Assembly: GCA_024655905.1 (NCBI GenBank)
Contig: JANLFP010000002.1
Coordinates: 1-64,000, forward strand
Reading direction: 5' to 3'
Origin: Tepidanaerobacteraceae bacterium
Lineage (GTDB): Bacteria > Bacillota > Thermosediminibacteria > Thermosediminibacterales > Tepidanaerobacteraceae
Length of the DNA stretch: 64,000 bases
Part shown: piece by piece, positions 37,379 through 64,000 of the stretch
Position numbering within the stretch: the first letter of the stretch is position 1
Layout: each line of letters opens with the position of its first letter
Translations under genes and position numbers: made by a program
Notes under the pieces: model-generated
The model's input: the letters and a program-made list of their open reading frames with translations, nothing else
Told to the model about the DNA's origin: nothing
The model's database searches: none

Positions 37379-37705
37379 ATGGTAGGTATGATAATTAGAT
37401 TTATAGTTTCAGCGCTGGTTTTGATGCTTGTAAGCTTCATACTGCCCGGTTTCAAAGTGGCGGGATTTACGGGAGCCCTGATTGCGGCTATTGTCATTGC
37501 CATACTGGGTTTCATTGTCGAAAGTCTTTTGGGAAACAAGATTTCCCCCCAGAACCGTGGAATAGTAGGTTTTATCACGGCGGCTGTGGTAATATATTTT
37601 GCCCAATTTCTGGTTCCCGCCATGAACGTCACATGGTGGGGAGCTCTGCTGGCTTCCCTGGTGATTGGCATAATCGATGCCTTTGTGCCTACCGAGCTTC
37701 GATAA
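37379..37705 (+). CDS. YvlD/phage-holin-4-type membrane protein
   Basis: This 108-residue protein has four hydrophobic segments and the PF04020-like pattern MIIRFIVSALVLMLVSFILPGF, then FIVESLLG, then FLVPAMNVTWWGALLASLVIGI. The family includes B. subtilis YvlD; its role is unknown, perhaps in envelope stress. It has GGAGGTG upstream. It ends only 14 bases before the gpr frame, so the two are probably co-transcribed. Confidence 0.82.
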   Translation: MVGMIIRFIVSALVLMLVSFILPGFKVAGFTGALIAAIVIAILGFIVESLLGNKISPQNRGIVGFITAAVVIYFAQFLVPAMNVTWWGALLASLVIGIIDAFVPTELR

Positions 37706-37718
37706 GGAGGGATAAATT

Positions 37719-38693
37719 ATAGAGAAAAACATTCGCACCGATCTTGCTATAGAAGCAAGAGAGCTGACGGGTGGCGGGGAACTTGCAGGGGTGCAGGTGG
37801 AAACGGAAAAATCTGATGAAATGACCATAAGCAGGGTAAGGATAGAAAATGAAGCCGGTGCCGAAGCCATGGGAAAGCCGATAGGATATTATGTAACGCT
37901 GGAAGTGCCCCGCCTTAAAGAAAGAGATCCTGTACTTGCGGAAGAAGTCAGCAAAAACATGGCTGAGGAACTGAAAAATATGATAGAACTGCCGGAGGAT
38001 GCCACAATACTGGTTATAGGTTTGGGCAACTGGAATGTAACGCCGGATTCACTTGGTCCGAAAGTCATCAGCAGGTTAATTATCACCAGGCATCTTATGG
38101 AAATGATGCCTGACAAATATAGTACGAAGAATGGCATCAGGCCTATCTGCGCTCTGGCTCCGGGAGTTCTTGGAATAACAGGCATAGAGACCGGTGAGAT
38201 TATCAGGGGTCTGGTGGAAAAGATAAGACCAAAGCTGATAATAGCCATTGATGCGCTTGCAGCCAGGAGCATGGAGCGCATAAGCACCACAATACAGATA
38301 TCCGATACCGGAGTATACCCGGGGTCTGGCATAGGCAATCGCCGTATGGGCATTACTGAAGAAACGATGGGTGTTAAAATAGTGGCGATAGGGGTGCCGA
38401 CTGTAGTGGATGCTGCCACAATGGCAAATGATACGTTGGACATGCTTATAGGTCAGTTCACGCGACAGGCCCGGCCCGGCAGTGAATTTTACAGGATGCT
38501 GCAGGAGCTTGATAAAGAAGAGAAATACAGACTTATTCACGAAGTGCTTTCTCCTTTCGTGGGACAGCTGGTAGTAACGCCGAAAGAGATAGATTCCTTA
38601 ATAGACAACACTGCCAGAACGCTCGCTGGAGGTTTGAACCTGGCTCTTCATCCGGGAATCAGCTATGAGGAGGTGAGCACTTTTCTTCAATAA
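37719..38693 (+). CDS. gpr: Germination protease (SASP-degrading), non-canonical start
   Basis: This 324-residue endopeptidase degrades small acid-soluble spore proteins during germination. The conserved N-terminus IRTDLAIEARELTG is present, followed by ILVIGLGNWNVTPDSLGPKV, PGVLGITGIETGEII, IIAIDALAARS and DTGVYPGSGIGNRR. In this frame the first ATG/GTG/TTG is a GTG at 37791, which would delete the conserved N-terminus and lies 80 bases from the only Shine-Dalgarno (AGGAGGG, 37706-37712). The codon at the proper distance is ATA at 37719 (or ATT at 37716); a TAA at 37713 blocks anything further upstream. Confidence 0.92.
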   Translation: MEKNIRTDLAIEARELTGGGELAGVQVETEKSDEMTISRVRIENEAGAEAMGKPIGYYVTLEVPRLKERDPVLAEEVSKNMAEELKNMIELPEDATILVIGLGNWNVTPDSLGPKVISRLIITRHLMEMMPDKYSTKNGIRPICALAPGVLGITGIETGEIIRGLVEKIRPKLIIAIDALAARSMERISTTIQISDTGVYPGSGIGNRRMGITEETMGVKIVAIGVPTVVDAATMANDTLDMLIGQFTRQARPGSEFYRMLQELDKEEKYRLIHEVLSPFVGQLVVTPKEIDSLIDNTARTLAGGLNLALHPGISYEEVSTFLQ

Positions 38694-49958: not shown

Positions 49959-50903
49959 ATGAATTGGGTTGAAATCAAAATCAAAACTTCCACCGAAGCC
50001 ATTGAAGCCGTGGCAAATCTGTTCTATGAAGCCGGCGTTATGGGCGTCGTGATAGAAGACCCGAGAATTTACCTTAGACCTCAGGATGAAGCACAATGGG
50101 ATTATATGGAAGTACCTGAGGGTATCGATTTTGAAGAAGCCGTGGTAACCGGCTATCTGGTGGAAGACAGCAGTCTTGCCGAAAGAGTCAGGGAGATTGA
50201 GGAAGGAGTAAAACGGCTTCCGGAATTTGGTTTGAACATGGGCAGAGGCGAGATGGCAATTACCATCATTTCCGATGAGGATTGGGCCAATGCTTGGAAG
50301 AAATACTACAAACCCACACGCATCGGAAAAACTTTGGTAGTAAAGCCTTCCTGGGAGGAATACCTTCCGCAGGCGGGTGAAGTCGTGATAGACCTGGACC
50401 CCGGCATGGCCTTTGGAACCGGTACGCATGAAACCACAAGGCTTTGCATGGAACTTCTTGAAAAATATATGAAAAGAGATTTTAGTGTGATAGACATAGG
50501 ATGCGGTTCGGGCATTCTTTCCATAGCTGCCGGGAAACTTGGAGCTTCCCGGGTGCTGGCCATTGACAGGGATGAAGTATCGGTGAAGGTTGCCGGGGAA
50601 AACGTTGAAAGAAACAATTTGAACGCTGTCGTAAAGGTGATAAAGGGCGAAGGATTGAGGAATATTTCTTTCAAGGCGGATATTATTGTAGCCAATATAA
50701 TTGCAGACGTCATAATTGATTTGAGCGGGCAGGTGCCCCTGAGCCTCAAGGAGGGCGGCGTTTTTCTAGCGTCGGGAATTATAAGAGACCGGAAGCTTTC
50801 TGTGGTGGAAGCCCTGGAGAGAAATGGATTTGATGTGATTGAGGAGTCTGAAAAGGGCGAATGGGTTGCGCTGGCATCGAGACAGGCCCCCATCGGAAAC
50901 TGA
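49959..50903 (+). CDS. prmA: Ribosomal protein L11 methyltransferase
   Basis: This 314-residue SAM-dependent enzyme trimethylates L11. The N-terminal substrate domain starts NWVEIKIKTSTEAIEAVANL. The Rossmann part has the PrmA motif DPGMAFGTGTHETTRL, then VIDIGCGSGILSIAAGKLGA and DIIVANIIADVI. The ATG at 49959 follows GGGAGG just after the dnaJ stop; the ATG at 49929 is inside dnaJ. The order dnaJ-prmA-rsmE-mtaB is conserved in Firmicutes. Confidence 0.96.
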   Translation: MNWVEIKIKTSTEAIEAVANLFYEAGVMGVVIEDPRIYLRPQDEAQWDYMEVPEGIDFEEAVVTGYLVEDSSLAERVREIEEGVKRLPEFGLNMGRGEMAITIISDEDWANAWKKYYKPTRIGKTLVVKPSWEEYLPQAGEVVIDLDPGMAFGTGTHETTRLCMELLEKYMKRDFSVIDIGCGSGILSIAAGKLGASRVLAIDRDEVSVKVAGENVERNNLNAVVKVIKGEGLRNISFKADIIVANIIADVIIDLSGQVPLSLKEGGVFLASGIIRDRKLSVVEALERNGFDVIEESEKGEWVALASRQAPIGN

Positions 50904-51679
50904 TGGGGGTGAATTTTACGCCCAGGTTTTTTGTCTTTAAAGATTTTTACCTAAATGAAACCGTGGTAATTTCCGGAGATGACGCCCATCATATAATGAA
51001 AGTGTTGAGGCATAAACCCGGTGACATTCTCAGGCTTTCCGACGGCAGGAACACAGAGGCAATAGCAGTCATAGAGGAGATAGATGCGAAACATATTCAA
51101 ATAAAAACAAAAATTATAGAGAAAAATATAAAAGATAATATAAAACCGGTAATCACCCTGTTTCAAAGCTTGCCTAAAGGGGATAAAATGGATTATATCC
51201 TTCAAAAAAACACTGAAATAGGCGTATCCAAGTTTGTTCCGATGATAACCGAAAGGACGATAGTAGAACTTTCACGGCAGAAGCTTTCAAAACGGATGCA
51301 GCGTTGGAGAAAAATAGTGATGGAAGCATCAAAACAGTGCATGCGCATGGATATTCCCCAGATATTCGATGTCAAGGGCTTTGACGACAGCCTGAAGGAT
51401 ATAAAAGATTATGATATCGCCATCATACCATGGGAACAGGAGAGGTCGTGCTTTTTGAAGAGTGCTCTGACTCAAGCAAATAACTATAATACGGCAAAAA
51501 TTGCGGTCTTTATTGGGCCGGAAGGAGGCTTTACAGGAGAAGAAATAACAAAGGCGAAAGGCTTCGGTGCCGTGCCTGTAAGCCTGGGACCGCGGATTTT
51601 GAGGTCTGAAACCGCTGCCATAGCGGTTTGCGCCGCAATAATGTACGAACTGGGCGAACTGGGAGGTAAAAATGCCTAA
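50903..51679 (+). CDS. rsmE: 16S rRNA (uracil-1498-N3)-methyltransferase
   Basis: This 258-residue SPOUT methyltransferase modifies U1498 in 16S rRNA. It has an early PUA-like part (GDDAHHIMKVLRHKPGDILRLSDG), FQSLPKGDKMDYILQKNTEIGV, then the knot region IGPEGGFTGEEI and LGPRILRSETA. The ATG at 50903 overlaps the prmA stop (TGATG) and has no strong Shine-Dalgarno, so translation depends on coupling. Confidence 0.95.
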   Translation: MGVNFTPRFFVFKDFYLNETVVISGDDAHHIMKVLRHKPGDILRLSDGRNTEAIAVIEEIDAKHIQIKTKIIEKNIKDNIKPVITLFQSLPKGDKMDYILQKNTEIGVSKFVPMITERTIVELSRQKLSKRMQRWRKIVMEASKQCMRMDIPQIFDVKGFDDSLKDIKDYDIAIIPWEQERSCFLKSALTQANNYNTAKIAVFIGPEGGFTGEEITKAKGFGAVPVSLGPRILRSETAAIAVCAAIMYELGELGGKNA

Positions 51680-61799: not shown

Positions 61800-61849
61800 T
61801 GTTTTTTGTGTACACTAATTATGGCAGCAGGGGAAAGGAGTGAGGTTCG

Positions 61850-62482
61850 ATAGAATTAACGCCCAGACAGGCAAAAATAGTGGAAATAGTAAAAAGAAAC
61901 GAGCCCATAACCAGCGAGCAGATAGCCGAAATGCTGCATTTGACCAGGGCTGCATTAAGACCGGACCTTTCTATTTTGACCATGTCGGGCATTTTGGATG
62001 CGCGGCCCAGAGTGGGGTATTTTTTTTCGGGCAAGACTGCAAGAAATATAATCTCCGAGAAAATAAACAAAATAAAAGTGGACGAAATAAAAGCCGTGCC
62101 AAAGGTGGTAAAAGAAGAATCCTCGGTTTACGACGCTATTGTTACACTGTTTCTGGGAGATGTGGGAACATTGTTTGTGGTGCAGGATGACGGCAGCCTG
62201 GCAGGTCTTGTTTCCCGCAAGGATTTGCTGAAAATAGCCATAGGCAATGCAGATATTCACAAAATACCGGTGGGCGTTATCATGACCAGGATGCCGAACC
62301 TTGTGACCGTAACGCCGGAAGAAAGCGCCTATGATGCGGCTCGAAAGATAGTTGACCATCAGGTGGACGCCCTCCCGGTGGTAAAGATAGAAAAAGAAGG
62401 GGACAAGGTTAAATACAAGTTGGTGGGAAAGGTTACAAAAACGACTATAACAAAATTGTTTGCAGAACTGGGAAAGGCTTAG
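61850..62482 (+). CDS. CcpN-type transcriptional regulator with CBS domains, non-canonical start
   Basis: This 210-residue protein has an HTH (LTPRQAKIVEIVKRNEPI, SEQIAEMLHLTRAALRPDL), the family stretch ILTMSGILDARPRVGYFF, and two CBS domains (SVYDAIVTLFLGDVGTLFVV and AYDAARKIVDHQVDALPVV) for adenine-nucleotide sensing. It is related to CcpN, the repressor of gluconeogenic genes in Bacillus. The first standard start (GTG 61880) removes the first HTH helix and is 35 bases from the AAAGGAGTGAGG site. ATA at 61850 is at the right distance, and a TGA at 61841 blocks anything upstream. Confidence 0.9.
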   Translation: MELTPRQAKIVEIVKRNEPITSEQIAEMLHLTRAALRPDLSILTMSGILDARPRVGYFFSGKTARNIISEKINKIKVDEIKAVPKVVKEESSVYDAIVTLFLGDVGTLFVVQDDGSLAGLVSRKDLLKIAIGNADIHKIPVGVIMTRMPNLVTVTPEESAYDAARKIVDHQVDALPVVKIEKEGDKVKYKLVGKVTKTTITKLFAELGKA

Positions 62483-62500
62483 GAAAGGGAGGGATCAACA

Positions 62501-63322
62501 ATAATAGATAAAGACAACACTCCGGTAGTGTTTGCAGTTTCCGATTCCATCGGCGAAACTGCCGAGCTTGTCACACGGGCTGCCATGATTCAATTCAATT
62601 CCGGCCATGTGGAGATCAGGAGAATCCCCTATGTGACCGATGAGGAATATGCCAGAGAAGTCATTGAAGAGGCCCGGGAAGTGCCCAACTGCGCCATAGT
62701 GTGCACAATAATTCTGCCTGAGGTCAGACGGCGAATCATAGAACTTGCCCGGGAAAACAATATACATATAGTGGACTTAATGGGGCCAATGATGGATGTT
62801 CTTTCGAAGATAACGGATCTTTCGCCCCGGCTGGAACCCGGGCTGGTACACAGGATAGACGAGGATTATTTTAGAAAAATGGAAGCCATAGAATTTGCAG
62901 TGCAGTACGATGATGGAAAAGACCCAAGAGGCCTGTCGCGGGCTGATGTGGTGTTGATAGGCGTATCCAGAACATCAAAAACACCGCTTGCTCTTTATCT
63001 CGCCCACAAGAGGCTGAAAGTGGCCAATCTGCCCCTGGTGCCGGAAGTAGCACCTCCCGATGAGCTGTTCGAACTGCCGCCCCGCTCGATTATCGGTCTA
63101 ACCATAACACCCGAAAAGCTCCACGAAATCCGCCGGGAAAGGCTCAAAGCCCTGGGCCTGAGCTCGGATGCCAGCTATGCAAGCCCCGAGCGCATACATA
63201 AAGAACTGGAATATGCCGAAAGCGTGATGAAAAAAATCGGCTGCCCAAGAATTGATGTTTCAAATAAAGCAGTTGAGGAAATAGCCACGAGAATACTTGA
63301 AATTATAAGGAAAGGAGAATAA
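62501..63322 (+). CDS. ppsR: PPDK regulatory protein (kinase/pyrophosphorylase), non-canonical start
   Basis: This is a protein of about 273 residues (DUF299/PSRP family). It has [18 protein letters not shown], then [12 protein letters not shown] and the P-loop [15 protein letters not shown], and [18 protein letters not shown]. It both inactivates pyruvate phosphate dikinase by ADP-dependent threonine phosphorylation and reactivates it. The target gene follows. The only Shine-Dalgarno, GGGAGGG (62487-62493), is followed at 7 and 10 bases by ATA ATA; the first standard start is GTG 62528, 34 bases away and inside the first beta strand. Confidence 0.92.
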
Positions 63323-63326
63323 TAAT

Positions 63327-64000
63327 ATGACCAAAAAATTTGTTTATAATTTTAGAGAAGGCAAAGCAGACATGAAGAGTCTGCTCGGCGGCAAAGGAGC
63401 AAACCTTGCCGAGATGGTACATATCGGCCTTCCGGTACCCATGGGCTTCACGGTGACGACCGAAGCCTGCCTCAATTACTACGAAGAGGGTGAAAAGATT
63501 TCGGATGAAATCCTGGCTCAGATTTTTGCCGCTCTGGATGAACTTGAAAAAGAAAACGGAAAGAAACTGGGGGATCCCCGGAATCCCCTCCTGGTGTCGG
63601 TCAGATCCGGCGCTGCCATTTCCATGCCCGGCATGATGGACACGATATTAAATCTTGGATTGAATGACGAAAGCGTCAAAGGACTAGCTGCCGTTACCGC
63701 CAACGAGCGCTTTGCCTATGACAGTTATAGAAGGTTCATCCAGATGTTCGGAAATGTTGTTCTCGGCATTGAACATGAAAAATTCGAGTCAAAAATCGAC
63801 TCGGTCAAGGCCAAGAAAAACGTCACCCAGGATACCGAACTAGGCGCCGAAGACTGGCAGGAAGTCATCAAGCTATATAAACAGCTGGTAAAAGAGGAAA
63901 CCGGAAAGGACTTTCCTCAGGATCCCAAAGAACAGCTTTTGATGGCTGTTGAAGCCGTGTTCAAATCATGGAATAACCAGAGGGCCAAGGTATACAGAAA
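63327..64000 (+). CDS. ppdK: Pyruvate, phosphate dikinase (5' part, runs off the window)
   Basis: The frame starts at ATG 63327 behind GGAAAGGAG and stays open to the end of the window (about 225 residues). It reads KKFVYNFREGKADMKSLLGG, KGANLAEMVHIGLPVPMGFT, VSVRSGAAISMPGMMDTILN and DSYRRFIQMFG, the nucleotide-binding N-terminal domain. PPDK interconverts PEP, AMP and PPi with pyruvate, ATP and Pi. The two upstream genes are its likely regulators, one transcriptional and one post-translational. Confidence 0.96.
   Translation, partial: MTKKFVYNFREGKADMKSLLGGKGANLAEMVHIGLPVPMGFTVTTEACLNYYEEGEKISDEILAQIFAALDELEKENGKKLGDPRNPLLVSVRSGAAISMPGMMDTILNLGLNDESVKGLAAVTANERFAYDSYRRFIQMFGNVVLGIEHEKFESKIDSVKAKKNVTQDTELGAEDWQEVIKLYKQLVKEETGKDFPQDPKEQLLMAVEAVFKSWNNQRAKVYR

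Follow-up and report, generated by a model that had tools for sequence, protein, structure and literature searches.

We found that ppsR, ccpN and gpr are very likely translated from AUA codons at positions 62501, 61850 and 37719, respectively, as weak starts that stand behind strong Shine-Dalgarno (SD) sites and would restrain the output of these genes. The use of AUA as the initiation codon of the three genes had been proposed in the earlier note, and the spacing to the SD, the conservation and the lack of alternative starts support it. The window, that is, the whole stretch of DNA analysed, is the opening 64 kb of a contig that measures 374,914 bases in a genome of 3.195 Mb. The organism is a heat-loving clostridial bacterium, and its relatives, which include Tepidanaerobacter, Thermosediminibacter and Thermovorax, place it in the Thermosediminibacterales. 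AUH stands for AUA, AUU or AUC, and the features concerned are as follows.

37704..37710, + strand: gpr SD site, AAGGAGG
37719..37721, + strand: probable gpr AUA initiation codon, 8 nt from the SD core, conserved at the order level
37719..38693, + strand: gpr coding sequence, germination protease (PF03418)
61834..61840, + strand: ccpN SD site, AAAGGAG
61841..61843, + strand: in-frame TGA ahead of the ccpN AUA, with two sense codons (GGT TCG) between; the same TGA is present in most family f1 genomes
61850..61852, + strand: probable ccpN AUA initiation codon, AUH in 26/26 class-level genomes
61850..62482, + strand: ccpN coding sequence, HTH plus CBS domains (Pfam HTH_11 and CBS)
62487..62493, + strand: ppsR SD site, GGGAGGG, core GGAGG at 62488-62492, 8 nt to the ATA at 62501, kept in relatives
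62501..62503, + strand: probable ppsR AUA initiation codon, the conserved one, in frame at SD spacing 7-8 in 24/26 class-level genomes
62504..62506, + strand: second ATA, most likely codon 2 of ppsR, unconserved, spacing 11 nt
62501..63322, + strand: ppsR coding sequence, bifunctional kinase/pyrophosphorylase regulating PPDK (Pfam PF03618)

The ppsR start region was confirmed to read as first described, with GGGAGGG at 62487-62493, then ATA ATA GAT, and the first GTG 34 bases after the SD. The gene itself is unambiguous in that PF03618 covers the whole of PpsR (E=8e-102, profile 1-256 of 256, Pfam), and a ppdK-like ORF with a canonical ATG follows at 63327. Around the ATA that is kept in frame at the 7-8 nt spacing in 24 of the 26 class-level genomes the neighbouring codons vary freely, the start reading GCG ATA ACA GAA in the same-genus relative and xxx ATA GTA GAA in other relatives, while the column of 62504 holds ACA, GTA, GTT or AAA. 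Thus the ATA directly before GAT (62504), at which the start had originally been placed, gives way to the ATA at 62501, which is favoured by the alignment of the relatives and by a spacing of 8 rather than 11 nt. Among the 24 loci, the ATA of L003 and L008 is immediately preceded by an ATG and that of L011 is followed at once by a GTG; the other two class-level genomes, L009 and L022, start with ATG. Since ATG precedes or replaces AUA in L003, L008, L009 and L022, a weak ppsR start is not strictly required.

The ccpN gene was identified by its HTH and CBS domains and its position next to ppsR. Its start column in the 26 class-level genomes contains 24 ATA, 1 ATT and 1 ATC, whereas ten internal conserved Ile columns average 47% ATA. 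In a wider set of 83 loci, which includes seven from class-level genomes already counted, the same column is ATC, ATT, ATA, TTG or GTG, and ATG in only 4; this alternation with canonical codons is the strongest sign that the gene starts at this column. The match to the HTH domain sets in at residue 6, ahead of the first GTG (61880, residue 11), and the in-frame TGA at 61841-61843 excludes an upstream start. Two loci with a Bacillota-type ccpN-ppsR pair, L069 and L085, lie on MAG contigs labelled Candidatus Sumerlaeota and Desulfovibrio, which are probably binning errors.

In gpr, an in-frame TAA (37713-37715) is followed by ATT (37716) and ATA (37719), so that here, as in ccpN, a stop just 5' of the AUA leaves no upstream start possible. 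The ATT at 37716 is unlikely as the start, with a spacing of 5 nt and with ACC at its place in the same-genus relative. The 20 readable order-level genomes, from two families, have 18 ATA, 1 ATT, 1 ATC and no canonical codon at the gpr start, and the outgroups have TTG at about the same position; judged by these alignments, gpr looks like the only one of the three genes whose AUH start is restricted to the order Thermosediminibacterales. The Gpr of this order (window 37719-37740; L122-L129) has just 3-5 residues ahead of the conserved RTDLA. An N-terminal propeptide is known in Bacillus Gpr, and most of it seems to be missing from the Gpr of the order.

When the SD was aligned to the 16S tail, the distance from its core came to exactly 8 nt for each of the AUA codons at 62501, 61850 and 37719, and the ATG starts of the same genome have their spacing peak at 7-8 nt. 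All three genes combine the lack of a usable canonical start with a conserved AUH codon near a strong SD. A common pattern of SD followed by ATAGA had also been suggested, of which the SD and the AUA hold up and the GA is a coincidence: GGAGG-N3-9-ATAGA has 62 matches in the genome and 59 in the reversed control, i.e. no excess, and the codon after ATA varies (GAG, AAC, GAC, AGT or AAT in gpr; ATA, ACA, GTA, GTT or AAA in ppsR). Local RNA folding around the three starts was not unusually stable (z of -0.5, 0.5 and 0.6).

Other readings of the ppsR start have to be weighed against the AUA at 62501. There is no canonical start near the SD, and an automatic gene caller would place the start at the GTG at 62528, the nearest in frame and the sole canonical one in reach, leaving the upstream ATA untranslated; the PF03618 match starts at about the residue of this GTG. 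However, no SD precedes it (duplex energy 0.0), the codon is GTT, GTC, GTA, ATC, ATT or ATA in most relatives, several relatives have no canonical start anywhere near the ppsR N terminus, and what is kept in relatives instead is the strong SD with AUA at fixed spacing, which makes the GTG start very unlikely. A CcpN-PpsR fusion produced by readthrough of the TAG at 62480 would fit the fact that this TAG is in the ppsR frame here and in one relative (G001), but the frames of the two genes differ in L003, L004 and other relatives that still possess the SD and the AUA, and we regard the fusion as extremely unlikely. The possibility that the codons are truly ATG, altered by base-calling or assembly error, is practically negligible, because AUA or its AUU/AUC equivalent recurs in over 20 genomes that come from several families and were assembled independently; two of them, G005 and G010, belong to the same family and consist of a single contig each. 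Conservation across relatives rules out the random base-calling error that had already been called improbable. The genomes share ancestry, so the conservation counts are not independent events.

It had further been supposed that the lineage tolerates AUA initiation in general, and unusual initiator tRNA and IF3 genes were looked for. We scanned 1.587 Mb for SD-AUH sites (50% of the genome, taken in stretches, with 1386 ORFs) and found in this sample 12 AUH codons that are well spaced from an SD and have no better start to compete with them, against 11 expected from codon composition; looser filters admit internal SD-like sites. About half of the 12 sites belong to the genes named in this text, with gpr, ccpN, ppsR, infC, rny and pstB as the clear cases. 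The initiator tRNA is single and ordinary with anticodon CAU, infC is an ordinary IF3 gene with an AUU start, and AUA makes up 46% of Ile codons and has therefore not been reassigned. Relaxed start selection throughout the genome, whether through a change in initiator tRNA or IF3 or through the reading of AUA as Met, would account for the presence of several non-canonical starts in one genome and for nrdR, in which ACG or ATT, seen in this species alone, takes the place of the ATG of relatives. Yet neither an excess of SD-AUA sites nor the initiator tRNA nor the identity of AUA points to initiation or recoding across the lineage, and distant Bacillota have AUH starts on the same genes, so that we consider such relaxation highly unlikely. 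The effect had been assigned to the lineage, and this does not agree with the AUH starts of ccpN and ppsR, which span much of Bacillota and are thus gene-specific rather than genome-specific.

AUH starts were also found outside the three genes. The rny gene, encoding RNase Y (G000:C32:84851, locus L269; others L270-L280 and L335-L361), has an AUU or AUC start behind AGGAGGTGA, often with its TGA in frame, which is kept in 12/12 order-level loci, and AUU, AUC or AUA with a near-perfect SD was seen in 28 of the 31 called loci across the phylum (Clostridia and beyond). For B. subtilis rny an AUG start has been described, and a mutation to AUC made in the laboratory reduced expression of the gene (PMC10303841). 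The pstB start (G000:C22:291684; L305-L309) is AUA in this genome and in genera g5 and g8, and ATG in the same column elsewhere. We rejected nrdR as a fourth case, since ATG stands in each of the ten family-level relatives found and the change is private to this genome: its sequence at G000:C22:286312-286317 (L232) is GGGGGTGAT ATT ACG AAG TGC where relatives have ATG AAG TGC, which, read from the alignment, would be a damaged start or else an ACG or AUU start peculiar to this genome. The ATC of ansA (C31:271111) was set aside as unconserved, with ATG, TTG or GTG in relatives. In rsmE (window 50903-50920), the usual first-Met position at window 50918 reads ACG (ACG CCC AGG TTT), as it also does in G005 and G009; the stop upstream is overlapped by an ATG in frame at 50903, at which reinitiation is possible.

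With an ordinary tRNA, an ordinary IF3 and AUA not reassigned, initiation at these codons is most simply explained by the usual tRNA acting on a third-base mismatch. Each AUA is normally spaced from a strong SD, and the CAU initiator tRNA would form the A and U pairs and mismatch the third base with help from the SD. The SD would recruit the 30S subunit efficiently, and the near-cognate codon would slow start selection and expose the complex to rejection by IF3, so that output should stay low and follow the balance of IF3 and ribosomes. The weak codon would be selectively maintained gene by gene, and infC, rny, ccpN, ppsR, gpr and, in some genera, pstB would form a small set throttled by the start codon. 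We infer the low output in this organism, its dependence on IF3 and its physiological purpose, and the conserved AUA looks like a built-in brake on protein amount. The suggestion that AUA keeps regulators at a low level would fit, by analogy, the S. aureus ccpN data, in which AUA gives about 10-30% of AUG (PMC13009471). By analogy also, the starts are probably sensitive to IF3, which in vitro excludes weak third-base pairs (PMC10158994) and in Streptomyces represses the non-canonical sigR start (PMC5472188).

Further, ccpN and ppsR are neighbours in one cluster ahead of ppdK, and none of the 86 ccpN-ppsR gene pairs has AUG at both genes. The ppsR start was called AUH in 48/86 pairs, namely in 18/23 of those with a canonical ccpN start versus 30/63 otherwise (Fisher p = 0.014, ancestry uncorrected; p = 0.006, likewise uncorrected, once the L042 start call is set to ATT, not GTG). 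These start calls hint that each pair retains one weak start, which we treat as a lead. The ppsR gene stands close behind ccpN, so that reinitiation or coupling could raise the output of PpsR.

In literature searches, which covered few subscription papers, we found no report of AUH starts for ppsR, gpr or natural or clostridial rny; the ccpN AUA and infC are already known, and the AUH starts of ppsR, gpr and rny are additions. Gene callers usually admit only ATG, GTG and TTG, and these genes are therefore likely mis-started or truncated in annotation, which removes part of the DNA-binding domain in ccpN or the membrane anchor in rny. To our knowledge, few bacterial genes with an AUH start have been documented, and with the central enzyme of mRNA decay, a repressor of carbon flux and the repressor's operon partner on one conserved list, IF3 regulation beyond infC becomes directly testable. 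We suggest only tentatively that Bacillota possess an ancient small AUH set (infC, rny, ccpN and ppsR, with gpr and pstB in sub-lineages) by which a single quantity, the activity of IF3 relative to ribosomes, might govern at once how much IF3 is made, RNase Y as the initiator of mRNA decay and the switch between gluconeogenesis and PPDK, with selection keeping at least one weak start per ccpN-ppsR pair.

The AUU, AUC or AUA start together with autoregulation is known for infC. The genes described here resemble infC, including the infC of this genome, in having AUH behind a strong SD; the products of ccpN, ppsR and gpr, however, are not IF3, so that an effect of IF3 on these genes would be control in trans with no feedback loop. 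The closest known case is ccpN of S. aureus, which has the same gene, the same codon class, a strong SD and normal spacing: its AUA start was shown by Ribo-Ret ribosome profiling (Kohl et al. 2026, PMC13009471), the AUA output was about 10% of that of AUG in poor medium and up to 30% in rich medium, and the non-canonical start is reported to be conserved between S. aureus and Bacillus subtilis (PMC13009471). In contrast to that paper, from which ppsR and PPDK are absent, AUH starts of ccpN extend here to 26/26 class-level genomes and most of the 83 wider loci, and the neighbouring ppsR is also AUH-started. The GTC start of Streptomyces sigR is likewise a conserved non-canonical start with an extensive SD that keeps a regulator low (PMC5472188), but it is GTC, not AUH, and repression by IF3 was demonstrated in Streptomyces, whereas for the genes here it would be expected from likeness. 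E. coli pcnB, as cited in PMC13009471, is a chromosomal gene whose AUU start limits output, and it differs in being an unrelated gene of an unrelated phylum; rny, also an RNA-processing gene, is the nearest parallel to pcnB here.
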